Below, one piece after another: positions 10,097 to 46,945 of a DNA stretch of 64,000 bases (within the stretch, counting starts at the first letter, position 1; every line of letters starts with the position of its first letter). The notes beneath the pieces are model-generated. The model saw only the letters and a list, made by a program, of their open reading frames with translations, was not told the origin of the DNA and made no database searches. This stretch comes from Desulfatibacillum alkenivorans DSM 16219 (GTDB lineage Bacteria > Desulfobacterota > Desulfobacteria > Desulfobacterales > Desulfatibacillaceae), in the NCBI RefSeq assembly GCF_900142135.1, contig NZ_FQZU01000007.1:62001-126000 (forward strand). The letters run 5' to 3'. A program made the position numbers and the translations under genes.

Positions 10097-10106
10097 ATCC
10101 CTGAAA

Positions 10107-10375
10107 ATTGGCGTTACGGTTCCAGGGAAAGCGGTGCAAATCCGCTGCGGACCCGCCACTGTGAGAGAGGACGAAAGCCGCACAAGCCACTGTTCTATGA
10201 CGCCCTCCACGGCAAGTCAGGAGGCGTCTCATGAGAAAAGCGCAGGAATGCGCCGGGTTATTTACCCGCTCATGGAAAAGAATGGGAAGGCGCGGCCGGT
10301 AGAATGATTCTCGAGCCAGGAGACCTGCCGTAACTTTTTCCGGACTCCGGAAAGCCTTCGGGTGTAAGGCAGGCT
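10107..10375 (+). ncRNA. cobalamin (AdoCbl) riboswitch
   Basis: The hallmark segments of the cobalamin riboswitch occur in order. The conserved core runs from GGTTCCAGGGAAAGCGGTGC at 10119 through GCAAATCCGC and CCGCCACTGTGA to about 10164. An AAGCCAC element lies near 10185, followed by a variable peripheral region. The B12 box, GAGCCAGGAGACCTGCC, is at 10313-10329. A 7-bp hairpin, GGCTGCA/TGCAGCC, follows at 10372-10391. An intrinsic terminator is the next structure, so the element most likely represses transcription when cobalamin is bound, as known for the family. The boundaries are approximate. Confidence 0.95.
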
Positions 10376-29272: not shown

Positions 29273-31597
29273 CTATACCGAGGAAGACCCGGACTGGCTC
29301 ATGTCGTCCGGGTTTTGCCCTGCGGGGCCCATAATGGGCAGGTGGATGATGAACTTGCTCCCCAGGCCCGGGGTGGTTTCCAAGGTCATCTTTCCCTTAT
29401 GGGATTGGGTGATGATGAAATAGGAAGCGGACAACCCCAATCCCGTCCCTTCTCCCACCTCATTGGTGGTGAAAAAGGGCTCGAAAACCCGTCTTGCCGT
29501 GGCCTCATCCATGCCCGGACCGTTATCCTCCACCTCGATTCGGACCATGTCTCCTTCCCGGGAAGTGCGCAGTTCGATTTTTTGCCGGCCAGAGCCGGCG
29601 TCCCCGCGCCGCATGGCCGAGGCCGCATTTCGTAAAAGGTCCAATATCACTTGTTGAATGCCGCTTCTTTCGCATAGCAGGGGAATATCGGGAAAACGGT
29701 AATCCCTTATGATTTCAATGTTTTTAAAGTCGTATTTCCGGGCCAGGTCGTAATCATTTTGAGCAAGTTTGATGGCGACGTCCAGGAGGTCGTCCAGGTT
29801 TTCCTTCTGGAAGTTTCCCCGCGTATTTCCGCCGAAGCCCATCATGTCGCCCACGATCACTGCGGCCTTTTCCCCCGCCTCCCTGATGTACTGGAGCATT
29901 TGCAGGACTCCCCTGAGCTCCAGGTAGGCGTAAATGCTTTGCACCGAAAGGCCGGCTTTTTCCGCAGCGGTCTGATTGGCCGCAAGGCCGGGGGACACCC
30001 TGTTAAGGACGACCTCCGCATTTTGCATGATGATTGCCAGGGGATTATTGATCTCATGGGCCATGCCTGCGGCCAGGCTGCCCAAGGAAATCATCTTTTC
30101 CGCCTGGACCATCATTTCCCCCACTCTCACCTGCTCCGTTACATCGTCTACTCGGACGACGGCGACGGATTCCAGGCCCTCGGATAGAGGAAAAACCGTA
30201 ACATCGGCATAGCGAACCTGGTCCTGGACCTTTCTTTCCACCTTGTTTTTCCGGGAGATTTCTCCGGTTTTGGCTGACAGCCGCACTTTTTCCATGAGGA
30301 AATCCAACTCGGGAAGGACATCCGTCAGATTTTGGCCCCTGGCCTCGTCCGCGCTCAAGCCCGTTTCAAGTTCGGCTTTCCTGTTCCAAAGGGTGACCCT
30401 GCCCTCGGCGTTGATTCCCGCAATGACGGACGGCATGGAGTTGATGGCGTCTTCAAATAGGTTCTTTAGCGCCTGCATTTCCAACTCCACTTTTTCGCGA
30501 AAGCTGATTTCGCGGGTGAGTTTGCGGTTGGAGTTGAACAAAATCAAGGCTATGACGCCGGCGCCCAAAAGGGCTGCCAGGGCGATTCCCAATGAACGCC
30601 GCAGCCATCGGAAATCCGGCTCCGGATTGGGATTGTACAAAAAACCTTCCAGCGAGTAATCAGGCTTGATTATGCCCGTTCGCACAAAGGTCTCTGCAAT
30701 GTGCTCCCAGCGTCCGGGGTTCATGTGTCCCATTTCCACAAGATTCGGCAGAACGAGCGCGTCCATGGCGCAAGCCTCATAAAGCAGATGCTCCATGGAT
30801 TTTTCCGAGTTGAATTTATCGTGGATCAAGGCCGCCATCTCATCCTGATGCTGCATGGCGTAGATCCAGCCTTCCAGACTGGCTTTCAGGAAGGCTTTAA
30901 CCCTGTCAGGATGCTTGGCGATTTCCTCTTCCGTGGTGAACAGGCAGTCTCCGTAAAAATCGATTCCGTAATGATTCGGCCTTATGGTTACGTAGGGAAT
31001 TCCAGCCTGCTTCAGGTAAAACGGCTCATTGGTGACGTAGGCGCTGAGAGCGTCCAAATTCTTGTCCAGATAATCCTGCGCCGTTACGGAGGCGTCCACG
31101 ATTTCAAGGGCGTTCAGGCTGATGCCTTCGTTCAGGAACGAGGCGTGCAGTTCCGTGTCGCGCCCCTGAAGAGACATTTTAACCCGTTTGCCCACAAGGT
31201 TTTGAGGAGAGGTAATGCCTTTATCCCTGTGGCTTACCAGAACCAGGGGGGAGTGTTGAAAAATGGCGGCCAAAACCACCACGGGTTCGCCGCGCAGCCG
31301 GTGCAGGAGAACTTCAGAATTGGTGACGCCGTATTGCGCTCTGCCGCTGACGACTTCGTCGACGGTTTGTTTTGCGTAGCCGCCTTCCGCCACAGTAAGG
31401 TCAAGGCCTGCGTCGCGATATAGTCCTTTTTCAAGGGCGGCGTAATAGCCTGCAAATTGGAACTGATGCTTCCATTTTAATTGTAAGACGACCGGCTCCG
31501 GCTTGGCTTGTTTGGAGAACGCACGGGGGATGCAGGGCGAGCCGCAGACGCAGAGGAACAAAAACAGAATCAAATAAAGTCCGGCTTGCTTGCGCAT
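29273..31597 (-). CDS. sensor histidine kinase with NMT1/THI5-type periplasmic domain
   Basis: A 774-residue membrane kinase. A signal peptide (1-28) is followed by a periplasmic binding domain of the NMT1/THI5 (ABC-type, SsuA/TauA-like) class at about 35-260, with LKWKHQFQFAGYYAALEKGL at its start. A transmembrane helix lies at about 335-355. Then come a PAS domain (about 385-500), HisKA with His514 in AAGMAHEINNP and HATPase with LRNAASAMR, DNGPGMD and GTGLGLSASYF. NMT1 domains typically bind small aromatic or pyrimidine-like molecules; the ligand is unknown. No response regulator adjoins it. A 12-bp perfect palindrome lies about 22 bp upstream of its start. Confidence 0.92.
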   Translation of the reverse strand: MRKQAGLYLILFLFLCVCGSPCIPRAFSKQAKPEPVVLQLKWKHQFQFAGYYAALEKGLYRDAGLDLTVAEGGYAKQTVDEVVSGRAQYGVTNSEVLLHRLRGEPVVVLAAIFQHSPLVLVSHRDKGITSPQNLVGKRVKMSLQGRDTELHASFLNEGISLNALEIVDASVTAQDYLDKNLDALSAYVTNEPFYLKQAGIPYVTIRPNHYGIDFYGDCLFTTEEEIAKHPDRVKAFLKASLEGWIYAMQHQDEMAALIHDKFNSEKSMEHLLYEACAMDALVLPNLVEMGHMNPGRWEHIAETFVRTGIIKPDYSLEGFLYNPNPEPDFRWLRRSLGIALAALLGAGVIALILFNSNRKLTREISFREKVELEMQALKNLFEDAINSMPSVIAGINAEGRVTLWNRKAELETGLSADEARGQNLTDVLPELDFLMEKVRLSAKTGEISRKNKVERKVQDQVRYADVTVFPLSEGLESVAVVRVDDVTEQVRVGEMMVQAEKMISLGSLAAGMAHEINNPLAIIMQNAEVVLNRVSPGLAANQTAAEKAGLSVQSIYAYLELRGVLQMLQYIREAGEKAAVIVGDMMGFGGNTRGNFQKENLDDLLDVAIKLAQNDYDLARKYDFKNIEIIRDYRFPDIPLLCERSGIQQVILDLLRNAASAMRRGDAGSGRQKIELRTSREGDMVRIEVEDNGPGMDEATARRVFEPFFTTNEVGEGTGLGLSASYFIITQSHKGKMTLETTPGLGSKFIIHLPIMGPAGQNPDDMSQSGSSSV

Positions 31598-32843: not shown

Positions 32844-35462
32844 ATGAAGTTGAGATCCAAGTTATTGACTATTCTATTGGCCAGCGCCCTCCTATTCGGC
32901 GTAACCCAGGGCTTGATTCAACATTATGTCATCTCTCCGCGTTTCGCCGCCCTGGAGAAGCGGGAGGCGAAGAAGGACCTGCTCCGTTGCGTCAGAACCC
33001 TTGAAACGGAAACAGAGCACCTAAAGGCCCTGACTCACGATTGGGCGTCCTGGGACGATACCTGCGACTTTATCAAGGGGGGCGGCCCTGATTATGAAGA
33101 AGCCAATCTGGTTTTAGAAACCTTTGTAGACGCCAGTCTGAACGCCATCTGCTTTTTTGATGGAAACGGAGATCTTTTTTGGGGCAAAGCCGTAGACATA
33201 GAAACAGGGGCTCCCCTGCAAATCCGTCTGCTTTCCGAGGGTAAACTTTTACAAGACCATCCTCTTTTTGTGGATGCGTCATCCTTCGTCTACCAGAAAG
33301 ATATCTCGAAGTCCGGAATTATGAGGACGGAGTACGGCCCCATGCTGGTCGCCTCCCTTCCTATTCTGAACACGGAAAACAAGGGGCCGGTGATGGGAAC
33401 CATGGTCATGGCGCGCCTTATTACGGAGGCAATGAAGGACAGACTCAGGGATCAGACGCAGGTTCCCTTCGACATTAAAATGATAGACCCGGGGTATGCA
33501 GAGGCGGATTCCGGCGACGAGAGGAAAGTATTCCTAAAGCCTTTGGATGAAAACACCCTCCAAGCCTCCATGATCGTGAAGGACATCACCGGAAAGCCCC
33601 GCCTGGAATTGAGCGCGGATTTGCCCCGGGACATCCTGCAACAGGGGCTCGCATCCATGCGGACCGCCCGCGGCGTCACGGCGGCGGCTGGAATTCTTTT
33701 TCTGGTTCTATTGATCTGGCTGCTTGAGGCGGCCATTGTCAGGCCCGTCGTCCGGCTGACGGGGCAGATGCTTGTCGCCGGAAGAACCGGGGAGTTGCCT
33801 GGCAAAGTTTTTGCGGGCAGGAAGGACGAAATTGGAACCCTGGAGAATGAGTTCGACAGTTTACTGGAAACGGTGCATAGCCAGTCCAAAGAGTTGGAAG
33901 AGGAGTTGACGGCCAAAAAGAATCTTGCGGAGAAGCTTGAGGAAAATTTTCAAAAATACAAGCTGCTGGCGGAAAACCTCAAGGATGTGGTGGCGACCAT
34001 CACGCCCGGGGGATACATTCAATATTGCAGCCCCGCCATTACGGAATTCAGCGGGCACACTGTGGAAGAGGTTGAGGGAAGGCATGTTTTCGGGTTTATG
34101 CCCGAAAACAGCGATCGAGAGCGCCTGATTGAACTGGTGGACAATATAGCGAAGTCCGGGGAAAGCCGATCCATGGAGTATGTCATGAGGGCGAAGGGCG
34201 GAGCCGGCTTTCCCGTGGAGTCCACGGCAAAGCCCATTATGGAAAATGGAAAACTGGTTCTGCTTCATTGCGTGTTCCGGGATATTTCTGAGCGAAAAAA
34301 AGTGGAGGATGAGAAAAATCGCCTGGAAGCTAAGCTGCAAATGGCGCAGAGGATGGAGGCCCTTGGGGCGTTGACCGGCGGAATTGCCCATAATTTCAAC
34401 AACGTTCTTGCTCCCATCATGGGGAATACCGAATTGGCCATGTTGGATATTCCCGAGGACAGCCAAGCCTTCAAAAATTTGCAGCAGGTGCTGGAGGCCT
34501 CTGATAAGGCGAAAAAGATGGTCAGGCAGATTCTTTCGTTCAGCGATCATGGGGACGAAGACCCGGCGATGATTGATATCGAGGAGGTCGTAGAGGAGAC
34601 CTACGGATTGATCAGGGCCTCCCTGCCTTCCAGCATTGAAATTCGGAAAGATGTGGAAAAAATAAGCGGGCTGGTCTACGCCGACCCCAAAGACCTGCAG
34701 CAGGTCTTGATGAATATTTGCGCCAACGCCGCATACGCTATGAAGGAGTTGGGCGGCGTGGTGGATATCTCGTTGGAGGAGCAGGACATCACGGAATTCG
34801 ATTTGGATCATTCCAGGAAGATCAAACCCGGGAAATATGTCAAACTGAGCATAAGCGATAATGGGCCGGGTATGGAAAGCGAGGTGATGCAGCGTATCTT
34901 TGAGCCCTACTACACGACCAAGCCCGTGGGCGAGGGCTCCGGAATGGGGCTTTCCGAGGCTTTTGCGCTGATTTCCAAATACGGAGGGGAAATCAAGGCC
35001 TACTCAGAGCCGGGAATGGGCGCTTCTTTTTATATTTATCTGCCGCTCATGGCTGCCTCCTCCAAAACCCTTTCCAAGGAAACGCTGCCCCAAGGCTCGG
35101 AGCGCATCCTTATGGTGGACGACGAAGAGGCGGTCCTTACCATGACCCGCCAGATGGTGGAACACCTCGGATACAAGGTCACGGCTGTTGACAACAGCCC
35201 CCAGGCCCTGAAAATTTTCGAGGCCGACCCCCAGGCCTTTGACTTGATCATAACGGACATGACCATGCCTTATGTCACGGGGGACAGCCTGGCCAACAGA
35301 ATCCTGGCCATTCGGCCTGAAATGCCGATTATTCTGTGCACGGGATTTTCCGAAAAACTTTCCAGGGAGCAGGCGAGGAGTATTGGCATCAAAGCCTATG
35401 TAACAAAGCCCGTGGTCATGGCTCAAATAGCCGGAATCATCCGGAGCGTTCTGGACCAATGA
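32844..35462 (+). CDS. CHASE4-HAMP-PAS hybrid histidine kinase with C-terminal receiver
   Basis: An 872-residue membrane kinase. TM1 (about 8-28) and TM2 (about 275-297) flank an extracytoplasmic CHASE4 sensor, recognised by LTHDWASWDDTCDFIKG. A HAMP linker and coiled coil lead to a PAS domain (about 378-490), then HisKA with His516 in TGGIAHNFNNV, HATPase with NICANAAYAMK, DNGPGME and GSGMGLSEAF, and a receiver (about 755-872, Asp in IITDMTMPYVTG). The HATPase G2 box reads GSGMGLS rather than GTGLGLS. It is divergent from cheR. AAAGGGTG precedes the ATG. The CHASE4 ligand is unknown. Confidence 0.93.
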   Translation: MKLRSKLLTILLASALLFGVTQGLIQHYVISPRFAALEKREAKKDLLRCVRTLETETEHLKALTHDWASWDDTCDFIKGGGPDYEEANLVLETFVDASLNAICFFDGNGDLFWGKAVDIETGAPLQIRLLSEGKLLQDHPLFVDASSFVYQKDISKSGIMRTEYGPMLVASLPILNTENKGPVMGTMVMARLITEAMKDRLRDQTQVPFDIKMIDPGYAEADSGDERKVFLKPLDENTLQASMIVKDITGKPRLELSADLPRDILQQGLASMRTARGVTAAAGILFLVLLIWLLEAAIVRPVVRLTGQMLVAGRTGELPGKVFAGRKDEIGTLENEFDSLLETVHSQSKELEEELTAKKNLAEKLEENFQKYKLLAENLKDVVATITPGGYIQYCSPAITEFSGHTVEEVEGRHVFGFMPENSDRERLIELVDNIAKSGESRSMEYVMRAKGGAGFPVESTAKPIMENGKLVLLHCVFRDISERKKVEDEKNRLEAKLQMAQRMEALGALTGGIAHNFNNVLAPIMGNTELAMLDIPEDSQAFKNLQQVLEASDKAKKMVRQILSFSDHGDEDPAMIDIEEVVEETYGLIRASLPSSIEIRKDVEKISGLVYADPKDLQQVLMNICANAAYAMKELGGVVDISLEEQDITEFDLDHSRKIKPGKYVKLSISDNGPGMESEVMQRIFEPYYTTKPVGEGSGMGLSEAFALISKYGGEIKAYSEPGMGASFYIYLPLMAASSKTLSKETLPQGSERILMVDDEEAVLTMTRQMVEHLGYKVTAVDNSPQALKIFEADPQAFDLIITDMTMPYVTGDSLANRILAIRPEMPIILCTGFSEKLSREQARSIGIKAYVTKPVVMAQIAGIIRSVLDQ

Positions 35463-35624
35463 TTTATAAATCCATGCCCCTTTGCCGCCAATTTGATGAA
35501 ATGAGGGGTATTTCACTCACCTTTTTGCTGTCAAATTAACTAGTACATTTGACTCTTTTCTACCTTTTTGATTCAAATCCTTAAAAACCTTGATAACTAA
35601 GTCATGGCAGGCCTACAATAAGTG

Positions 35625-35658
35625 CATCATGCGGACGAACCGCATACCCACCGGATCT
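35625..35658 (+). promoter_or_regulatory. conserved upstream inverted repeat, copy 1 (ATGCGG-N5-CCGCAT)
   Basis: ATGCGG-ACGAA-CCGCAT within a longer conserved stretch ending CCGGATC, about 30-60 bp upstream of the first paralogue's ATG. The arms are identical in copy 2, while most of the spacer differs. Confidence 0.65.
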
Positions 35659-35685
35659 CACTTTTCTATAAGGAGGATGTTCGAT

Positions 35686-36483
35686 ATGAAATTGCGCAGA
35701 AGTGCGTCCATGCTCGTCTTGTTGACGGTTTTTCTCCTGGGGCGGTTTGTTTTTGCAGGGCAGCCGATTAAAATGCAGACGGCTCCCGCTCAAGTTCAGC
35801 CTGTCATTAATAAAAATATCACACAACAAGTCCCTTTAGTTGATCCGCAGATTTCCATACTTGGAATTCAGACGAGAAACATGCAAACTCTTTCCATGGT
35901 GGAGTATGAGATTAAAATCAAAAACGACGCCTCCACACCATACCGAGGCATAGCCCAACTGGCGCTGGACCTGAAAAGCATCATTCCTCCCGGCGAAAAT
36001 ATTTTTTGGGAGGAAGGGACTCCCGCCAAAGAGATAGGGCCTTTGGCGCCGGGGGAGGAAAAAAGCATCCGCGGCCAGTTGTCCCGAAAAGGCGCCGCCG
36101 TTTCCCTAAGGGCGTCCATCAAAACCAAGGATAAAGTCTGGCAATCCAAGACCGTTAAAATGGCCGAAATGCCTGCGCCCAAGGTGGAGATCACAAACTT
36201 GGAAATCCGCGACGGCAAGGTTTACGCTGCAATCAAGAACAAGTCCGCTTATCAGATTGATCCCAATGGGGGGCTTCTGATCCAGTTCTACGGGGGAGTC
36301 AAGCAAGCGGACGGATCCGTGGAATTCTCGCCGGCCGGGGGCAGGAGCATGACGTTGGCGCCTCATGCAGAGGCCACGCAAAGCTCAACTATCAGGGACG
36401 GATTTGACCTGTACAAAGTGACCCTGTTTTTTACCAGGGGAAAGACCAATATTACGGCTGATTCCAAGCTCATCAGCCTATAG
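35686..36483 (+). CDS. secreted protein of unknown family, tandem paralogue A
   Basis: A 265-residue protein with a Sec signal peptide (MKLRRSASMLVLLTVFLLGR, cleavage after FAG). The mature protein begins with a Pro/Gln-rich segment and INKNI, then two beta-rich regions. Shared blocks with the next gene include STPYRGIAQL, EIGPLAPGEEKSI, MPAPKVEI, QADGSVEFSPAGG and the closing FDLYKVTLFF. The segment YEIKIKNDASTPYRGIAQL reads like an immunoglobulin-type domain handling a conjugated strand pair. The start at 35686 is set by AGGAGG nine bases upstream. The function is unknown and no named family comes to mind. A perfect 11-bp hairpin follows the stop. Confidence 0.75.
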   Translation: MKLRRSASMLVLLTVFLLGRFVFAGQPIKMQTAPAQVQPVINKNITQQVPLVDPQISILGIQTRNMQTLSMVEYEIKIKNDASTPYRGIAQLALDLKSIIPPGENIFWEEGTPAKEIGPLAPGEEKSIRGQLSRKGAAVSLRASIKTKDKVWQSKTVKMAEMPAPKVEITNLEIRDGKVYAAIKNKSAYQIDPNGGLLIQFYGGVKQADGSVEFSPAGGRSMTLAPHAEATQSSTIRDGFDLYKVTLFFTRGKTNITADSKLISL

Positions 36484-36490
36484 CCGCAAA

Positions 36491-36517
36491 AGGCGGCCGG
36501 GCTCGTCCCGGCCGCCT
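36491..36517 (+). terminator. terminator-like hairpin after paralogue A
   Basis: Perfect 11-bp stem AGGCGGCCGGG/CCCGGCCGCCT with a CTCGT loop. The T run comes only about 22 bp later (near 36539), so intrinsic termination is uncertain. Confidence 0.6.
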
Positions 36518-36688
36518 GAAGATGAAGGGCTGTCCATCGGTTTTTTTTATGCTTTGCGAGCCTCCAAAAAGAAACTATTCATTTTTCTTATGGTCAAAAC
36601 CATCATTTTTTTGACTATTTAGCTTCATTTTAAGTCATACGTTCTAAAAAACTTGAAAGTAAAGTTAAAGCAATGTAAGAATACCGTC

Positions 36689-36721
36689 CATCATGCGGAT
36701 AGACCGCATTCCCGCCGGATC
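36689..36721 (+). promoter_or_regulatory. conserved upstream inverted repeat, copy 2 (ATGCGG-N5-CCGCAT)
   Basis: ATGCGG-ATAGA-CCGCAT in a context matching copy 1 (CATCATGCGG before, CCGGATC after), about 30-60 bp upstream of the second paralogue. The conserved distance to the ATG suggests a shared operator or 5'-UTR hairpin. Confidence 0.65.
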
Positions 36722-36748
36722 GATTATTCCATTTCAGGAGGCATTTGT

Positions 36749-37552
36749 ATGAAGTCATGCAAAGGAGTGCTGCTGTATATTTTGCTCGCGGTTTTCGCCC
36801 TGACCTCTATTGCCGGGGCAGGGCCGCCGGTCAATCTGAAGGGCCCCCCTGCGGTTAAACAGCCCGGACCCGCAATCAATAAAAACATCCTGAAACAAAT
36901 CCCGGAAGCCGATCCGGGCCTGGCGATCATCGGCCTGCAAAGCAGACACACCCAGGAGGTGTCCGCCCTGGAATATCAGGTTAAAATTAAAAATCAATCG
37001 TCCACGCCTTATGCAGGCCACGCCAGGCTGGGTATTTATTTAAAAATGCATGATCCCACGAAGCCCGATAAATTCAGGTGGGATATGGCGGAAGCCGGCA
37101 AGGAAATAGGCCCGTTGGCCCCTGGCGAAGAAAAGACTATTGCCGGCCGGGTCGTCAGGACCGGATATGCGGTGGGCATAAAGGCGGCTGTAAAAGGGAA
37201 AGACAAGGAATGGGCTTCCAGAACTTCCACGCTCCCTGACATGCCCGCGCCTGATGTGAAGATTAAAAATGTCAGCGTTGCAAACGGCAGCGTCCGCATA
37301 GACATGGAAAACCATTCCAACTATAAAATTGACGACCACGCCGGTTTGGGCGTGCAGGTGCTCAAAGGGACGAACCAGGCGGACGGCTCTGTGGATTTCG
37401 CCCCGGCGGGAGGGTTCCTGGTGAAATTGGAGCCCCATCAGCAATTCACCCAAACAATGACATTAACTCCCGGACATGACGTGTACAAGGCCCGTTTGTA
37501 CTACTCCAGGCCCACGCTTGTCGTAGTGGATGAAAAGATTTTTTGGCCTTAA
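36749..37552 (+). CDS. secreted protein of unknown family, tandem paralogue B
   Basis: A 267-residue protein parallel to paralogue A over its whole length: signal peptide (cleavage near SIAGA), INKNILKQIPEADP matching INKNITQQVPLVDP, YQVKIKNQSSTPYAGHARL, EIGPLAPGEEKTI, MPAPDVKI, QADGSVDFAPAGG and HDVYKARLYYSR. The strongest conservation is in these short blocks, so the pair has diverged but keeps the same fold. CAGGAGG lies eight bases before the ATG. Both copies have the same small inverted repeat upstream and a hairpin downstream, so each is probably its own transcription unit. No function is assigned. Confidence 0.75.
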   Translation: MKSCKGVLLYILLAVFALTSIAGAGPPVNLKGPPAVKQPGPAINKNILKQIPEADPGLAIIGLQSRHTQEVSALEYQVKIKNQSSTPYAGHARLGIYLKMHDPTKPDKFRWDMAEAGKEIGPLAPGEEKTIAGRVVRTGYAVGIKAAVKGKDKEWASRTSTLPDMPAPDVKIKNVSVANGSVRIDMENHSNYKIDDHAGLGVQVLKGTNQADGSVDFAPAGGFLVKLEPHQQFTQTMTLTPGHDVYKARLYYSRPTLVVVDEKIFWP

Positions 37553-37559
37553 CAGCTTA

Positions 37560-37585
37560 AGGCGGTCGGCCTTGATCCGGCCGCC
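37560..37585 (+). terminator. terminator-like hairpin after paralogue B
   Basis: GGCGGTCGG and CCGGCCGCC pair with one G-T wobble across a seven-base loop, directly after the stop. It resembles the hairpin after paralogue A but has no T run. Confidence 0.5.
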
Positions 37586-37807
37586 CCGGGCTTAAAAACG
37601 CTCCATCAGTTGAGTGTCCAATCATGGAATCAGCATGGCCCAAGGGGGGAGGCTGCTCAGGGATTTTAAAAGAATCCCGTTCGAAAAATATTCCCTATTC
37701 ATGTTGCTTATGATAGAATAATTGCTTGAATTATTCTGCTTTAATCCAACCCGCGGCTTTGCCGCACGACCAACCATTCACAATTTGTTTTTAGGGGGAG
37801 AACAACC

Positions 37808-39466
37808 ATGGAAAAAATCTGGCTGAAAAACTATCAGGACGGAGTCCCGGAAGAAATCGATCTGAGCGAGTATAGCTCCATTCCTGATATTATGGACCAG
37901 GCTTACGCCAAATACGGTCCCAAACCCGCTTTTCACCAAATGGGCAAGAGCATTACCTATGATGAACTAAACGAGTTGAGCAAAAAGTTCGCCAGTTTTC
38001 TCCAGAACGACCTGGGGTTGAAACAGGGCGCCAGGGTGGCCCTGATGATGCCCAATATCCTTCAATATCCCATTGCCCTGTTTGGAATTCTTCGCGCCGG
38101 AATGGTGGCGGTCAACGTCAATCCCCTGTATACGGCCAGGGAGTTGGAGCACCAGTTGAACGATTCGGGCGCCGAAGCCATCCTGATTTTCGCCAACTCG
38201 GCCAGCGTCCTGCAGCAGGTCCTGGGCAACACGCCCGTCAAGCACGTATTGATCACGGAAATCGGCGACATGCTGGGGTTCCCCAAGAGCCTGCTGGTCA
38301 ACACGGTCATCAAGCGCGTGAAGAAGATGGTGCCGCCGTTCAGCCTGCCCAGCGCCATGAAGTTCAAAGCGGCTTTGGCCAAGGGAAATTCGGCGACATA
38401 CAAGCCGGCGAAGATCACCCTGGACGATTTGGCCTTCCTGCAATACACCGGCGGCACCACGGGCGTGTCCAAGGGCGCCGAGTTGACGCACAGGAATATC
38501 GTGGCCAACGTGCTTCAGGCCAGGGCGTGGATCAGCGGAAAAATTGAGGACGGAAAGGAAATCATGATTACGCCCCTGCCGCTCTATCACATCTTTTCCC
38601 TGACGGCCAACTGCCTGACCTTTTCGTCCATCGGTGCATTGAACGTGCTCATCACCAACCCCCGGGACATCCCGGGCTTTGTCAAGGAATTGAACAAGTG
38701 GAAGTTCACCTCCATGACCGGCGTCAACACACTCTTCAACGCCTTGATTAACGATCCCGAATTCGCCAAGGTGGATTTTTCCAGCTTTAAGCTGGCCCTG
38801 GGCGGCGGCATGGCGGTCCAGGAGCCCGTGGCCCTCAAGTGGAAGGAAATCACCGGCAAGCCTCTGGTCGAAGCTTACGGCCTTACCGAGACCTCGCCGG
38901 CCGCCTCCATCAACCGCATGGACCTGAAAGCCTATAACGGCTACATCGGCCTGCCCATCTCATCCACCCTGTTCGCCATCCGGGACGACGACGGCAATGA
39001 CCTGCCCTTGAACGAGGTGGGGGAAATCTGCATCAAGGGCCCCCAGGTGTTCCGCGGCTATTACAAGAGGCCCGAAGAAACCGAAAAGGCCTTCTGGAGC
39101 GACGGCTTTTTCAAGACCGGCGACATGGGCTTCATGACCGAAGAAGGCTTCATCAAACTGGTGGACCGGAAAAAGGACATGATCCTGGTTTCCGGCTTTA
39201 ACGTCTACCCCAACGAAATCGAAGACGTGGTGGCCGGCCATCCCAAGGTCCTGGAATGCGCGGCCGTGGGCGTGCCCGACGCCAAGAGCGGCGAGCTGGT
39301 CAAGCTCTTTGTGGTCAAAAAGGACGCATCCTTGACGGAAGAGGAGTTGAAGGCCTTCTGCAAGGAAAACTTCACGGGCTACAAGGTTCCCAAGTTCTAT
39401 GAGTTCCGGGACGAACTGCCCAAGACCAACGTGGGCAAGATCCTCCGCAAGGATCTTCGCCAATAG
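37808..39466 (+). CDS. fadD: long-chain fatty-acid-CoA ligase
   Basis: A 552-residue AMP-forming acyl-CoA synthetase. Motifs occur in order: the P-loop YTGGTTGVSKGAELTH (about residue 215), the adenylation core VEAYGLTETSP (about 355), and the C-terminal FKTGDMGFMTEEGFIKLVDRKKD and SGFNVYPNEIEDV. It activates free fatty acids to acyl-CoA for beta-oxidation at the cytoplasmic face of the inner membrane. Length and motifs match FadD closely. AGGGGGAGAAC precedes the ATG. In a sulfate reducer this gene would feed fatty-acid oxidation. A strong intrinsic terminator follows. Confidence 0.95.
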   Translation: MEKIWLKNYQDGVPEEIDLSEYSSIPDIMDQAYAKYGPKPAFHQMGKSITYDELNELSKKFASFLQNDLGLKQGARVALMMPNILQYPIALFGILRAGMVAVNVNPLYTARELEHQLNDSGAEAILIFANSASVLQQVLGNTPVKHVLITEIGDMLGFPKSLLVNTVIKRVKKMVPPFSLPSAMKFKAALAKGNSATYKPAKITLDDLAFLQYTGGTTGVSKGAELTHRNIVANVLQARAWISGKIEDGKEIMITPLPLYHIFSLTANCLTFSSIGALNVLITNPRDIPGFVKELNKWKFTSMTGVNTLFNALINDPEFAKVDFSSFKLALGGGMAVQEPVALKWKEITGKPLVEAYGLTETSPAASINRMDLKAYNGYIGLPISSTLFAIRDDDGNDLPLNEVGEICIKGPQVFRGYYKRPEETEKAFWSDGFFKTGDMGFMTEEGFIKLVDRKKDMILVSGFNVYPNEIEDVVAGHPKVLECAAVGVPDAKSGELVKLFVVKKDASLTEEELKAFCKENFTGYKVPKFYEFRDELPKTNVGKILRKDLRQ

Positions 39467-39531: not shown

Positions 39532-39870
39532 ATGGACGAAAAACAAAAGCAGGAATTAAAGATAAAAATTCTGGAGCAGATTGAATCCCTGAAAAAGGAC
39601 ATCGCCTCCTTGGCGGAGGCCACCCGCCCCATTTCCCCGGACAACGCCATAGGCAGAATCTCCCGCATGGAGGCCATCAACGCCAAGAGCGTGAATGAAA
39701 AGGCCCTGGCCAACGCCAAGGCCCGAATGAACGGCCTCATGCGCGCCCTGGACAACATCGGCGATCCTGACTTCGGGTATTGCGCCATCTGCGACGAGGA
39801 AATTCCCATGGGCCGGATCATGCTCGTGCCCGAGTCCGGCGTTTGCGTCAAATGCGCCCAAAAAGCATAA
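39532..39870 (+). CDS. DksA/TraR-type C4 zinc-finger protein
   Basis: A 112-residue DksA/TraR-family protein: an N-terminal coiled coil (about 1-75) and a C-terminal zinc finger with Cys84, Cys87, Cys105 and Cys108. The coiled-coil tip reads PISPDNAIGRISRMEA rather than the DxxDxA of true DksA, so it probably contacts RNA polymerase differently, as TraR-like proteins do. A role as a polymerase secondary-channel modulator is inferred from the family. AAGGAATT precedes the ATG, and the fadD terminator lies directly upstream, so it either depends on readthrough or has its own start. Confidence 0.88.
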   Translation: MDEKQKQELKIKILEQIESLKKDIASLAEATRPISPDNAIGRISRMEAINAKSVNEKALANAKARMNGLMRALDNIGDPDFGYCAICDEEIPMGRIMLVPESGVCVKCAQKA

Positions 39871-40885: not shown

Positions 40886-43800
40886 TCAATCCTCCACTCG
40901 CAATTTGATTTCGCCGGAATTGGCCTTGAGCTCAGGCGCATACATGGCGTGGGCCTTGGTTGGCAGGGCCGAGAACCTGCCCGGGATTTCCGCCCGCATC
41001 CGGTACGACAGGTTGTGGGTTCCCCGAAGAACGGACCGGCAGAAGAAGGCCACCCGTTCGTCCCGGTATTCCACGTAGGCGCCCATGCCCGCGCCGCTGT
41101 ATCCGCTGCGCACGTCCACGGGCTCGAATCCGGCGGGCTTGTAATCCTCAAAAACCAGGTATTCGTAGTCGTTCTTGCTTTGGACGGTCAACTCCACTTC
41201 CACAAGGTCTCCGCTTTGGAGCATGTCCAGGTTGCTTAGCTCCTGGCGTTCGTATTTTTCCACCTTGCGGTCCAGAACCTGGCCGCGGGCGCCCGCGTCC
41301 TTGATGGTTTTGTCCACAGGCTTGAGCAGATAGATTTTGCGATCCACCTTGATTTCCAAACCCGCGGCCTTGATGTCGTCCTCCAGGGTGAAATTGCTCA
41401 TCCAGGCATTGAAGTACACCGGGCCCTTGCCTTTGCGCTCCAGCCGGATTTCATGCCTTCCCGAGGAGATTTCATCCCCTCTCAGGATCAGCGCATTGTC
41501 AAAATCCAGCAGGTTGCCTTGGTTGACCGCGACTTCTTTTTTTAAAATACCGTCCACGTATACCGCAATCTTCATGTCCGGGGCGTCTTCGCCCGAGGCT
41601 TTCAGGTAGTCGGCCAGGGCCTCGATGCACAGGGCCGTGTCCCGGGTGGATTTCCAGCGCGCGCCGTGCTTCCGGTTGTTGAGGATGTACTTGACCAGCC
41701 CGGCGGCCTGGTTCTGCGCACCTTTTTCCCCTTCAAATCCGGTTGCCGCCAGGAGTTTCAAATACCAGGCGTTGGCTTCCATCCGGTCTCCGTACCAGTA
41801 CCACCACCAGGCGCCGCCGCCCATTTCCAGGCAGCAGGTCTGGTTTTCGTCGTCGCAAACCAGATATTGGCTGATGTTTTTCATGACCCGGGCCAGGTCC
41901 TCGTTCTCCTCCATTACATGGAGGCCGGCGCCCAGCAGGGTCAGGCCGTAGACCGAAAGACGGGTTTTATCCCGCATGAGATAGTCTTTCATCGCCTGAC
42001 TTCCCTGGCCGGCCCGAGCCAGGATCATGAAGATATAGGCGTCCGTATTGTCGGCATACGTTTTATAAGGCTTTGTTTTGGAGGCGGCGTTGTTCAGGTG
42101 GGTTAACTGCTCCTCTTGGTAACGTTCCAGCCAGGCAAGGCCTTGTGTGAGCACGGCTTGAGGAACGTCCGCCCCGGCCTCCTTGGCCTTCATCAGACCC
42201 CGGACCACGGTGGCCGTGGTATGGGGATAGGAGTGTTCTCCCCGGCCGGAAAACCAGCCCCATCCGCCATCGGAATTCTGCATGGAGGCCAGCTTGTCCA
42301 CGCCTTCCCGCACCATGTCCCGGACCCTGGCCGGATCGTACACCGGATTTTCGTCCCACTGCTGCCATTGGGCGGCGCGTTCGGCCGGGTCTCCCATTTC
42401 CTGGGCGTTCAGGTTGGTGTGCTTGTCTTTCAGGGCTTTCAGGTCAATGCCTTTGCTTTCCAGCAGGTTCAGGGTGATTGCCGTGGGCAGAAACCGGTTC
42501 AAGGTTTGCTCGGTGCATCCGTAGGGGTAATTTGCCAGATAGGGCAGGGCGTCGACCATGGCGCCCGCCAGGGTGGGGGAGTATCTCACCTCCAGGCGGG
42601 AGGCCTCGGGGCGTCTCGCCTTGGGGACGTCAATGGTAAAGACGCCGGAGTTTTGATCCGGCCGGATGACGCCGCTGAAGGTCTCGGTTTTTTCCATGCC
42701 GTGAACGTAGACGGGAAAGCGCATTTCCATGGCGTCCGATTCCTTGGCGGAAATCGCCTTCATACGGACGATGGCCTCGCCTTCCTTGACGACCTTCACC
42801 CGCCAGTCCACGCGTTTTTCGCTGTTGGAGTCCAGCGGCAGGATTTTGTTGGCGCCCCGTTCCAATTCCAGGCAGCCGCCGTCCAGTTCCAGAACGGCCC
42901 TGACCGAAACCCGGTCGTCCAGATAATTATGGATATTGGCCGAAAGCACAACCTCGTCCCCTTGCACGAAGAACCGGGGGGCCTGCAAGCGCAGCAGCAG
43001 GTCCTTGGACGTGACAACCTCTGCTTCCCCCTGGCCCACCCGGGTGCCGTGGCCCATGGCCCAGGCCTTGATCTTCCAGGCGGTCAGGTTTTCGGGCATG
43101 TCAAATTCCACCTGGGCGTGCCCGTTTCCATCGGTCTCCAAGGACCCGGCCCAAAAAGCCGTGTCCGCAAATTCCGTGCGCACATGCACGGCTTCTTCCG
43201 AGGCGCCGGCGCCTGCATCGGCTTCATCGGACATCATTTCCGCCTGGGGCGCCGGTGCAGCGAAGGTTGCCATTTCACCGATTGCAGCGCTACGCAGCAC
43301 GTTGCTCTTTGGTTTAGCAAGCATTCTATGGGCAACACGTTTTTCGCCCGGAGCGGGAACGGACCCAAAAACTCCGATAGGGCGCATGGCGATCGAATCC
43401 GGGGGCGTTACTTGATATTCATTGGAGCTCACATTATCCGAGGTCCTTGGAGAGTGGCTTCTGACCCATTTCCAGAAATAGTCCCGGATGTCAGGGACAT
43501 TGGAGCCGCCGGAAATGTACTCGACAGCCTTGTCGTACACGGTCAGCACCGCACTTCCTTTAAAGGGCTCGCCGTCCATGCCCGTCAGGCGCAGGTCGAT
43601 TTTGGCCTTCTCGCCGGGCTTGTATTTTTCGGAGGAAGGCAGGACCTCCACATTACACACGCGATTTTCGGGCGGAACCACAATCCGCCGGGTTTCGGAG
43701 TACACCTTGCCGTCATGGACGGTCAGGGCCTCCACAAAGAAATTGGGCATATCCTTTTTGCTGACTTCGATTTCCTGAACCGTGCTGTTTCCGTTGATCC

Positions 43801-46800
43801 GCAAAACTCTGGGCTTGGGATACACGCCGTTTTCCGGCCTGACAAACAAGAGCACCGTGGAGTCCTTGGCGCGGGTGTTGATACGCAGCCGCACCTTGTC
43901 TCCAGGAGTGTATTCCCGCAAATCAGGCACAAGTTCCAGATGGTCGAAGACGAAATTTTTGCCTGTGTCTTTATCCCCCATGACGCAGAACACGTATCCG
44001 CCTTCCCGGGTGCGGCCCTTGGCGTCGATTACGCTGAGGGAAATGCGATACTGCCCGGCCTTTGAGGCGTCCATTTTCAATTCCGCGCGGCCGTCAGCGC
44101 CGATTTTCAGGTCCCATTCCTTGACGGCCTTTTCCGAAGGCTCGCCGTTTTTGCGGGTGACTTTATACAAAACCGCCTTGCCCGAACCGGACACAGGCTT
44201 GCCGTCCGGAGTCTGGGCGGAAAAATCGGCCTTGACCACGTCGCCCACCTGATAATGTCCCTTATTCACCCAGGCGTAGACCTTGAAAGGCTCCCTGGCC
44301 GCAATCACGGCGCCTTTTCCCACAATGGTCCTGCGGGATTGGTCCGTCACTTCCACGGTGATTTCGTATCGATGGTCTGAATCGCCCCTTAGCTCTTTGG
44401 CCAAAGCCGTATCAATGGGCAGCTTCAGCACGCCGTTCTCATCGGTCAGGCCCTGGCCTTCGGCCACCACTTCCGGCGGTGCATTTCTGCCGCTCCACCA
44501 CCATGACCAACGGGGACGATTGCAGCCCCACTTGGTCCAGCCGGGATACCAGTCATAATCGTAGCCAAACCACCAATACCCGGCGCCGTACAGCCAGTCC
44601 CAGGGGCCCCGGGGAAACCAGCCCTGATTATACTCGGACCGAAGCACCTTGTAGGCGACCTTGGCTTCTTGGACCGGCGCGCCGAAATAATAATCCGCTT
44701 TGATTTCCACCGGAATGGTTTCGCCCAGGGCGATGGGCTTTTCGGGCGCTTCCACCTTAACCTCAAATTCCGGCTTTTTGTATTCCTCCACCCGGAATGA
44801 GATGCTTCCTTGGGAGCCTAAATGGACGTAATACCTGCCAAGGGGCGCTTCATCGGGCAGGGTGTATTCACCCTCCATTCCGCCGTATTCGTCCGCGATC
44901 TTTGTGCTGCTGATGATGGTCGTGCTTTTGGGGTCGACTCCTTCGATCATGAAGGATTTGCCGGCGTACTTGGATTTCTCGCCCAGGTCGTACCTTGCCT
45001 GGCGCACCCAGAATTTATAATGCACGGTCTGGCCGGGCCGGTATACGGGCCTGTCCGTAATGCCAAAGGCACGGGTTTGGTCCAGGTTGTCAAGGTCCGA
45101 GCGTCCCCACCAACCGCCATAATTTTCAAAATGGGTGAATCGGCCATCGGCGCTTTCGGCTGTCACGATCAGGCCGAATGATCCTCGCTCCCGCAGATCC
45201 TCAACGGTTGCCATGCCGTTCCGGTCGGTTGTTTTGACCATTTCATCAATGACTGTTTTTTTCGGATTTAGCTCGTACCAAAATAGTTCAACCTTCATTC
45301 CGGCCAGGGGCTCGCCGGTCGCCGCGTCGCTGATATAATACAAATTCCGGCCGTTCATGGTTTTTTGGACAATGGCCGTGTCTGTTATTCTGACAATGAT
45401 GCTGGAAGCATTGCCGTTTTCCATCTGGGAGGTCAGGAGATAGACCCCTGCCTTTTTCAAGGGCGTTTTGACGGTAATCCGTTTGTCGAAATGATCCTTG
45501 TTCGGCTCCAGGGCCAGGTCCCATTCCGCCGCGGTTTTTCCAAGGTATTGCGTCTGGTTTTGGGTGACGAGGCGCTCTACGATATTGTACAGATTTATTG
45601 TATCAAAATCGGGAATTCCTTCTTTTGCATCCCGGATAGTTTTTTTTACGTCTTCGATCAGCCTTTTCTCGTCAACCTCCACGGCCTTGAAATGCACCTT
45701 TTTTCCGTTGCGGAATGTAAAGCCGACTTCCGCTTCCCTGCCCGCGGGCTGAGTCGCGCAGGAATCGAACTCTCCCAAGGCGCCGGTAAGCTGCATCAAC
45801 TTTTTGTTCTGCTCCTTTTTGCTTTTAGGAAAGCGCTTAATCAAATCCTTACGGTACTTGACCGCCTTGGGATATTGCCGGCGGTTTTCAAAAATTTGGG
45901 CCAGGGATTCCAGGGCGTTTTGCGCATAGCTTCCGCCGCTTTTTTCGATCTGCTTGTAGATGGCGATATAATTATGCTCTTTGGGCAGGGTAAAGCGTTT
46001 AACGCCCGAAGCCAGGGATGCAATGGTTTCGTTCTCCGACAAGGTGTGAACGGTAAAAGGACCGTCCTTTTCCATCCCGCCGTCCATGGCGCCCGCCAAA
46101 AGCGACGCCCTGGTTAAAGTTTCCACGCCGAATTGGTCTTGCAAAAACTTGGCGTATTTCCAAAGGGCTTGATTTTTCGACTCCGGGTTTCGTTTTGCCG
46201 CATAGTTCAATAGCCAGCGATACCGCTCCCCGTCATTGGCGGCTTTTTCAAAACTCTCAGGAATAGAGTAAAAAATAGGGTTTCCTTCCGGGTCCACGGG
46301 AGTTCTTGCATTCTCATAAACGTAATGACTCCAATATCCTTCCTCATGATCGGGCAGGGTTTCCAGGTCCGTGGCGTATTGAAGCCTCCAGGCCTCGCCC
46401 AGGCCGCGATAACCCAGGACCATGTTTGCAAAACGGAAGCACAGGCTGGATGCGTCGGTTTTGTCCACGTCATCCGGAAGAATATCCAAGGCCTGCTTCA
46501 TCAATTGCAGGGCCCGCACCCGGTCCCGCTCCGAGGCGTCCACACGGTCGCAGCCCCCCCTGTGGGGCCCGCGTTCAAATTTTCCGGAGACTATACACCC
46601 GTTATGATCCAGGGAAAAATACGTCTCCGCCGCCCGGTGGAGAACGCGCCATTGGTCCTTATGGATTTCCACGGCTTTTTCCAAAAGCCCGTCGGCTTCC
46701 TTCAACCTGCCAAGGCGCTGCATACAGGCCGCGGCGTTCGTGAGGGAGGGCGCCGCTTCATCAGGGTCGGCGTTTTCGTCCTCAATCACTTGAACATACA

Positions 46801-46945
46801 AATCCAGGGCGTCCTTATAGTTGCCCTCCTGCATTTGCCTTTCGGCTTGCCGGAACGGGCTTTCATGGTTCGCAGACTGGGAAAAAGCCGCAGGCGCAAC
46901 CAAAAGCAGAATAAAAACGACTATTAAAAAAGGCCTGATTTGCAT
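40886..46945 (-). CDS. bacterial alpha-2-macroglobulin family protein
   Basis: A 2019-residue exported giant. A signal peptide (1-22) is followed by TPR-like helices (about 30-350), then macroglobulin (MG) beta-domains, with Asp/Gly-rich signatures such as VYRPGQTVHYKFWVRQARYD. A long bait-like stretch with low similarity follows. The thioester domain reads YPYGCTEQTLNRFLP: Cys1477 and Gln1480 provide the CxEQ internal thioester used to trap proteases covalently. The rest matches the complement-like TED and C-terminal domains. A tryptophan-rich insertion (12 Trp in about 46 residues, about 776-823) is unusual. Most bacterial homologues sit beside a PbpC peptidoglycan synthase; none lies here. 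AGGAG precedes the ATG. Defence against proteases in the periplasm is the expected role. Confidence 0.92.
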   Translation of the reverse strand: MQIRPFLIVVFILLLVAPAAFSQSANHESPFRQAERQMQEGNYKDALDLYVQVIEDENADPDEAAPSLTNAAACMQRLGRLKEADGLLEKAVEIHKDQWRVLHRAAETYFSLDHNGCIVSGKFERGPHRGGCDRVDASERDRVRALQLMKQALDILPDDVDKTDASSLCFRFANMVLGYRGLGEAWRLQYATDLETLPDHEEGYWSHYVYENARTPVDPEGNPIFYSIPESFEKAANDGERYRWLLNYAAKRNPESKNQALWKYAKFLQDQFGVETLTRASLLAGAMDGGMEKDGPFTVHTLSENETIASLASGVKRFTLPKEHNYIAIYKQIEKSGGSYAQNALESLAQIFENRRQYPKAVKYRKDLIKRFPKSKKEQNKKLMQLTGALGEFDSCATQPAGREAEVGFTFRNGKKVHFKAVEVDEKRLIEDVKKTIRDAKEGIPDFDTINLYNIVERLVTQNQTQYLGKTAAEWDLALEPNKDHFDKRITVKTPLKKAGVYLLTSQMENGNASSIIVRITDTAIVQKTMNGRNLYYISDAATGEPLAGMKVELFWYELNPKKTVIDEMVKTTDRNGMATVEDLRERGSFGLIVTAESADGRFTHFENYGGWWGRSDLDNLDQTRAFGITDRPVYRPGQTVHYKFWVRQARYDLGEKSKYAGKSFMIEGVDPKSTTIISSTKIADEYGGMEGEYTLPDEAPLGRYYVHLGSQGSISFRVEEYKKPEFEVKVEAPEKPIALGETIPVEIKADYYFGAPVQEAKVAYKVLRSEYNQGWFPRGPWDWLYGAGYWWFGYDYDWYPGWTKWGCNRPRWSWWWSGRNAPPEVVAEGQGLTDENGVLKLPIDTALAKELRGDSDHRYEITVEVTDQSRRTIVGKGAVIAAREPFKVYAWVNKGHYQVGDVVKADFSAQTPDGKPVSGSGKAVLYKVTRKNGEPSEKAVKEWDLKIGADGRAELKMDASKAGQYRISLSVIDAKGRTREGGYVFCVMGDKDTGKNFVFDHLELVPDLREYTPGDKVRLRINTRAKDSTVLLFVRPENGVYPKPRVLRINGNSTVQEIEVSKKDMPNFFVEALTVHDGKVYSETRRIVVPPENRVCNVEVLPSSEKYKPGEKAKIDLRLTGMDGEPFKGSAVLTVYDKAVEYISGGSNVPDIRDYFWKWVRSHSPRTSDNVSSNEYQVTPPDSIAMRPIGVFGSVPAPGEKRVAHRMLAKPKSNVLRSAAIGEMATFAAPAPQAEMMSDEADAGAGASEEAVHVRTEFADTAFWAGSLETDGNGHAQVEFDMPENLTAWKIKAWAMGHGTRVGQGEAEVVTSKDLLLRLQAPRFFVQGDEVVLSANIHNYLDDRVSVRAVLELDGGCLELERGANKILPLDSNSEKRVDWRVKVVKEGEAIVRMKAISAKESDAMEMRFPVYVHGMEKTETFSGVIRPDQNSGVFTIDVPKARRPEASRLEVRYSPTLAGAMVDALPYLANYPYGCTEQTLNRFLPTAITLNLLESKGIDLKALKDKHTNLNAQEMGDPAERAAQWQQWDENPVYDPARVRDMVREGVDKLASMQNSDGGWGWFSGRGEHSYPHTTATVVRGLMKAKEAGADVPQAVLTQGLAWLERYQEEQLTHLNNAASKTKPYKTYADNTDAYIFMILARAGQGSQAMKDYLMRDKTRLSVYGLTLLGAGLHVMEENEDLARVMKNISQYLVCDDENQTCCLEMGGGAWWWYWYGDRMEANAWYLKLLAATGFEGEKGAQNQAAGLVKYILNNRKHGARWKSTRDTALCIEALADYLKASGEDAPDMKIAVYVDGILKKEVAVNQGNLLDFDNALILRGDEISSGRHEIRLERKGKGPVYFNAWMSNFTLEDDIKAAGLEIKVDRKIYLLKPVDKTIKDAGARGQVLDRKVEKYERQELSNLDMLQSGDLVEVELTVQSKNDYEYLVFEDYKPAGFEPVDVRSGYSGAGMGAYVEYRDERVAFFCRSVLRGTHNLSYRMRAEIPGRFSALPTKAHAMYAPELKANSGEIKLRVED

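Follow-up and report, generated by a model that had tools for sequence, protein, structure and literature searches.

Two adjacent genes for predicted exported proteins in Desulfatibacillum alkenivorans DSM 16219 are each preceded by the same short inverted repeat, ATGCGG-N5-CCGCAT. The question is whether this likeness is left over from duplication of the genes or marks a control element and, if it does, whether the element acts as DNA or as RNA. We analyzed the surrounding 64,000 nucleotides (the window; contig NZ_FQZU01000007.1, positions 62,001 to 126,000) and compared the locus to the sole other genome of the genus in the comparison (G001; locus L007), and to genomes of the order and the phylum. 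G001 has a single orthologue that is 63% identical to the protein of the first gene (copy 1) and that is flanked, as judged by eye, by a kinase gene and an acyl-CoA synthetase-like gene. The features of the locus are listed in Table 1.

Table 1. Features of the locus, in window coordinates
Feature	Position	Strand	Remarks
Hybrid sensor histidine kinase (CHASE4-PAS-HisKA-HATPase-receiver), upstream neighbor	32844..35462	+	Similar gene beside the G001 orthologue, by eye
Putative sigma-70 promoter, copy 1, TTGATA-18-TACAAT	35590..35619	+	Consensus match only
Copy 1 leader element ATGCGGACGAACCGCATACCCACCGGATC	35629..35657	+	Dyad 35629-35645
Copy 1, predicted (by eye) to be an exported protein of 265 aa; modeled with a hydrophobic N-terminal helix and two beta-sandwich domains	35686..36483	+	
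GC-rich 3' hairpin after copy 1	36491..36517	+	11 bp stem, loop 5
Putative sigma-70 promoter, copy 2, TTGAAA-18-AAGAAT	36653..36682	+	Consensus match only
Copy 2 leader element ATGCGGATAGACCGCATTCCCGCCGGATC	36693..36721	+	Dyad 36693-36709
Copy 2, 267-aa predicted exported paralogue	36749..37552	+	
GC-rich 3' hairpin after copy 2	37561..37585	+	Inner stem 9 bp, loop 7
AMP-binding enzyme (acyl-CoA synthetase-like), downstream neighbor	37808..39466	+	Near-identical gene start beside the G001 orthologue, by eye

A conserved element upstream of two paralogous genes

We found that the inverted repeat belongs to a longer conserved sequence. A first-pass annotation of this DNA had described the same dyad before each gene, with fixed arms and a variable spacer. 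The dyad is indeed exact upstream of both genes, and it ends 40 bp (copy 1) and 39 bp (copy 2) before the ATG. These are the only exact dyads in the window. With up to two mismatches there were five, compared to 4.5 expected; that is, the exact pair alone is exceptional. The arms are as described. The spacer varies only in part: all three leaders, including that of the G001 orthologue, begin it with A. The extent of the conserved unit also had to be corrected. In an alignment of the two upstream regions, the block extended past the dyad as NCCCNCCGGATC, continuing to CCCNCCGGATC, and the inverted repeat is one portion of a 29-bp element, ATGCGGANNNNCCGCANNCCCNCCGGATC.

The element is retained upstream of the orthologous gene in G001, where the leader reads TTATGCGGATTTGCCGCACACCCACCGGATC. 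One base of the right arm is changed (CCGCAC), which leaves the dyad imperfect. Two further regularities are found within and beyond the element. The half-site recurs 11 bp further on with one mismatch (CCGCAT-N5-CCGGAT), and in each of the three leaders there is a GGA at element positions 5, 25 and 44 or 45. In the three leaders, the sequence AGGAGG comes 13, 14 and 13 bases past the end of the element.

Recent duplication does not explain the likeness of the leaders, because the paralogues share only 22 of 53 fourfold sites (43 of 79 for copy 1 and G001; 22 of 55 for copy 2 and G001). By comparison, 22 of the 29 columns of the element are identical in all three leaders, versus 46 of 120 ungapped columns elsewhere in the alignment. 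The best non-overlapping window of 29 columns had 16 identical columns, and a 29-column window as good as the element arose in 11 of 20,000 column permutations. Based on these results we infer that the element is under selection, having been maintained while neutral sites mostly changed. The annotation had proposed that the duplicated unit is kept, and this reading applies both over the old duplication and between the two species. Copy 1 is more similar to the G001 protein (63%) than it is to copy 2 (44%); if rates were similar, the duplication therefore probably preceded the split between the species, with later loss of copy 2 from G001.

Each gene appears to have its own transcription signals. 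The putative -10 sequence is 9 bases (copy 1) and 10 bases (copy 2) from the element, and by eye the G001 leader has TTGAAA-17-TAATAG, 10 bases ahead of the element. Promoter-like sites are not enriched in the region (3, compared to 2.7 in shuffles), so the promoter assignment rests on this shared register. The same register places the hairpin that the dyad could form at the start of the message, and the element is therefore probably located at the 5' end of each mRNA, with transcription predicted to begin a few bases before it. Downstream, there is a GC-rich hairpin after each gene, as the annotation had noted, and one is likewise visible by eye after the G001 orthologue. For the two window hairpins, equally good folds were obtained in 4 of 200 and 5 of 200 shuffles. 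After the copy 1 hairpin, a run of T's comes only ~20 bases downstream, with none directly following. Because such a hairpin ends both genes (and, by eye, the gene in G001), each looks like its own transcription unit.

Searches for further copies of the element

The annotation had suggested an operator shared by a regulon, which would predict more sites near other genes. The 6.47-Mb genome contains four exact dyads. Two are the leaders described here, and the remaining two are inside genes, one of the PPDK/PEP-utiliser type and one for an acyl-CoA dehydrogenase. With one mismatch there were 26 dyads, eight of which were read in their context. By open frame, 25 of the 26 are inside stop-to-stop frames of 230 codons or more, a criterion that is imperfect in that one of the 25 (at L159) is counted by virtue of an antisense frame even though it lies between genes. 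The other (L163) has a frame of only 96 codons. With up to two mismatches, the genome contained 450 dyads, compared to 384 for a reversed control.

Longer patterns gave few matches. Within three mismatches, a 33-base version of the element had no further match in its own genome, the 29-base element had one more (with three mismatches), and the G001 genome had none for the 29-base element besides the leader of the orthologue. We also used a looser pattern, ATGCGGANNNNNCGCANNCCCNCC, that is without the CCGGATC end, allowing up to two mismatches. It was found at 11 places in the D. alkenivorans genome: the two leaders, L159, L183 and seven others, each with two mismatches and in an open frame of at least 263 codons.

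The sites at L159 and L183 are intergenic. At L159:1057-1080 (G000:C42:6056-6079), the looser pattern is exact, between the genes for a 3-hydroxyacyl-CoA dehydrogenase and an acyl-CoA dehydrogenase and 66 bases before the start codon of the latter. This site adjoins an interspersed intergenic repeat (L159:984-1053; G000:C42:5983-6052), for which the genome gave 45 matches, counting the repeat itself (40 of 109 candidates were scored). In G001, the element is missing from the DNA ahead of the orthologous acyl-CoA dehydrogenase gene (88% identical over 359 aa). At L183:1501-1524 (G000:C10:92306-92329, - strand), the match has one mismatch and is located 71 bases ahead of a small gene. The arms of this match are not complementary, so that no dyad is formed, and the small protein has no evident relation to the pair described here. 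We considered a link to fatty-acid metabolism, given the acyl-CoA dehydrogenase at L159 and the acyl-CoA synthetase-like neighbor of copy 2, and rejected it based on the lack of the element in G001 and the adjoining repeat at L159. No dyad within two mismatches is present ahead of the AMP-binding gene.

The idea of a shared genome-wide operator, and with it a genome-wide regulon, is not supported by these matches. What stood of the earlier description, an operator or an RNA element, is that the sequence is under selection. It is possible that there is a looser regulon that includes L159 and L183. Both of the outside matches to the looser pattern with no more than one mismatch are intergenic, and this is therefore evidence against the notion that the element is private to one gene family.

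The full element is known from only three genes in two genomes, based on scans of the order. Among 194 genomes, the 29-base element within three mismatches was found at 42 places in 32 genomes, and the exact matches are the three known leaders only. Thirteen of the 42 places were viewed in context. They comprise the three leaders, nine places in open frames of 262 codons or more (among them both of the two-mismatch matches in the order), and a match at L150 that has a frame of only 97 codons. A reversed-pattern control gave only two matches. We judged this control unfair since the reversed pattern probably owes its rarity to the word CTAG, and an excess of the element over chance is therefore possible. 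In a looser scan of the genome collection, none of the matches listed outside the two genomes of the genus was exact at the 21 fixed bases.

Relatives of the proteins are similarly restricted. The remaining 192 genomes of the order yielded none, and a search for related loci gave no confirmed one. Among 395 genomes of the phylum, 10 had a match at E <=0.1: the two of the genus, six that were weak, and two (L203 and L204) with clear partial relatives whose hydrophobic N terminus looks similar by eye. L203 and L204 match no Pfam family and do not have such an element (best 8 mismatches of 21). Among the titles listed in literature searches, none concerned this element.

Leader RNA or DNA operator

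The reading we favor, tentatively, is that the element is a cis-acting leader element private to this family of exported proteins and acts as an mRNA 5' hairpin with a recognized tail. Each gene would have its own promoter, and the transcript would begin a few bases upstream of the inverted repeat. Its first feature would be a hairpin with a 5-6 bp stem; the conserved tail CCCNCCGGAUC would come next and, 13-14 bases on, the AGGAGG Shine-Dalgarno sequence. The hairpin could guard the 5' end against decay, and a trans-acting factor (protein or small RNA) would read the arms and tail and set stability or translation. Given that the element is near letter-perfect while the proteins have fallen to 44% identity, it probably has a specific ligand, either a protein or an RNA.

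When folded from the predicted start, the best structure of all three leaders contained the hairpin, with pairing probabilities of 0.99-1.0, 0.77 and 0.99-1.0. The G001 leader alone was clearly more stable than its shuffles, of which 3 of 200 folded as well over 40 bases and 8 of 200 over 67 bases. The two window leaders were scarcely or not at all better than theirs: 23 of 200 shuffles equaled copy 1 and 106 of 200 equaled copy 2, or 20 and 42 of 200 when a shorter stretch was folded. The best fold of a 72-base stretch of copy 2 lacked the hairpin. The stem is identical in the three leaders except for a broken outer pair, and there is no covariation. The G001 leader has lost the outermost A-U pair and gained a lower stem, GGGUGU/ACACCC. 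With an E value limit of 5, four Rfam matches were obtained for the region from 35463 to 37810; the best had E 0.98, and all fell well short of the gathering score. Elsewhere in the window, a cobalamin riboswitch (10100-10346, + strand, 98.5 bits) was the only match to reach it.

It is plausible, if doubtful, that the element is instead a DNA operator just past the promoter, where a dimeric repressor bound to ATGCGG-N5-CCGCAT, perhaps with CCGGAT as a third half-site, would block transcription. The dyad is a perfect 17 bp in both window copies, the half-sites ATGCGG, CCGCAT and CCGGAT are in 11-bp steps (about one helical turn), and what is conserved is sequence rather than pairing. The position between the -10 and the start codon would fit a repressor, and a short perfect dyad at a near-constant place after a putative promoter resembles known repressor operators so placed. 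The two outside partial matches are also intergenic. However, there is no further full-length site, the other exact dyads are intragenic, the match at L159 is missing at the G001 orthologue and that at L183 lacks the dyad. The changed right arm in G001 makes the dyad imperfect there, and an operator leaves the conserved CCC of the second spacer unexplained. Furthermore, none of nine neighboring proteins scanned belongs to a transcription-factor family (two of the nine matched no family at all). The element differs from such operators in having no supported regulon, no transcription-factor family among the scanned neighbors, and conservation beyond the dyad.

The sequences do not discriminate between the two forms of this gene-family-specific cis element, and a leader RNA hairpin is only slightly more likely than a DNA operator. 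Two observations favor RNA: the tail past the dyad is conserved as well, and in the G001 leader symmetry is lost while stem is gained. The leader hairpin resembles the 5' stem-loop mRNA stabilizers of the ompA and papA type in that it lies a few bases from the predicted 5' end and ahead of the ribosome binding site. Those stabilizers require structure and not a fixed sequence. In contrast, both the arms and the tail of this element are fixed in sequence. A bolder version, which we consider unlikely, is that this is a new type of leader RNA restricted to the genus, in which a 5' hairpin and a fixed single-stranded tail would have an RNA-binding factor of their own; the RNA would co-evolve with one exported family and would have been retained through duplication.

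Control by CsrA is very unlikely. CsrA dimers would bind the GGA motifs of the hairpin, the tail and the Shine-Dalgarno sequence, which are about 20 bases apart, and block translation. According to the excerpts available from one account (PMC7652899), CsrA bridges sites 10-63 nt apart, with >18 nt optimal, and the spacing of the GGA motifs fits this rule. The genome also has one CsrA match above the cut-off (G000:C88:136850-137005). In these respects the leaders resemble those bound by CsrA/RsmA, with GGA motifs running up to the Shine-Dalgarno sequence. The same excerpts describe the GGA as single-stranded in a loop, with ACA in all SELEX ligands, and binding by RsmE as weaker when the GGA is paired. 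In contrast, the first GGA of these leaders is partly paired, with its GG in the 5-6 bp stem (predicted 0.77-1.0), and there is no ACA ahead of it, making this a non-canonical site. In addition, we estimate that two GGA motifs are not rare in a GC-rich leader.

Least probable of all is that the element is without function, either left over from duplication or a piece of an interspersed repeat: the full element is at one locus per genome and a partial copy adjoins an intergenic repeat (G000:C42:6056), but the full element does not recur elsewhere in its own genome and, with only 22 of 53 fourfold sites shared, an unselected leader would hardly hold 22 of 29 bases in three copies.

We found no evidence here for a new global system. 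The leader element is an ordinary-sized cis-regulatory finding that most likely concerns one gene family. It offers a case, small but open to testing, of how exported proteins without an assigned function may be controlled.

The exported proteins and their neighbors

The proteins encoded by copies 1 and 2 are 44% identical nearly end to end, in keeping with the shared blocks noted in the first-pass annotation. Both are predicted to be exported, based on an N terminus that by eye looks like a signal peptide. A profile search for a known family, proposed as a check in that annotation, gave no match to Pfam or NCBIfam at threshold, and the best PDB sequence match had an E value of only 0.019.

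An AlphaFold model of copy 1 (from an input of three sequences; mean pLDDT 77.7, pTM 0.63) has an N-terminal helix, low-confidence residues 19-50, and then two beta-sandwich domains. Each predicted domain is similar in fold to the sandwich (Ig/FnIII-like) domains of GH2 enzymes, the first with Z 11.0 and rmsd 2.2 over 99 residues and the second with Z 11.4 and rmsd 1.9 over 88 residues. The pair differs from other exported two-domain proteins of the Ig/FnIII-like kind in having no Pfam or NCBIfam family at threshold. These are matches to common domains, and the modeled sandwich fold alone tells no function. As relatives of the whole model, transglutaminases and similar proteins were rejected (TM-score <0.4 among the 50 Foldseek matches listed), as was the biofilm matrix protein RbmA, for which the full alignment was obtained only at rmsd ~17.

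Several other genes in the window are worth recording. Shortly downstream of the acyl-CoA synthetase-like gene there is a gene for a 112-aa protein with a DksA/TraR zinc finger (39532-39870, + strand). Another histidine kinase, at 29273-31597 on the - strand, has an N-terminal NMT1/THI5-like domain that is probably its sensor. Also on the - strand, the gene at 40886-46945 encodes a 2019-aa bacterial alpha-2-macroglobulin-like protein with N-terminal TPR repeats.
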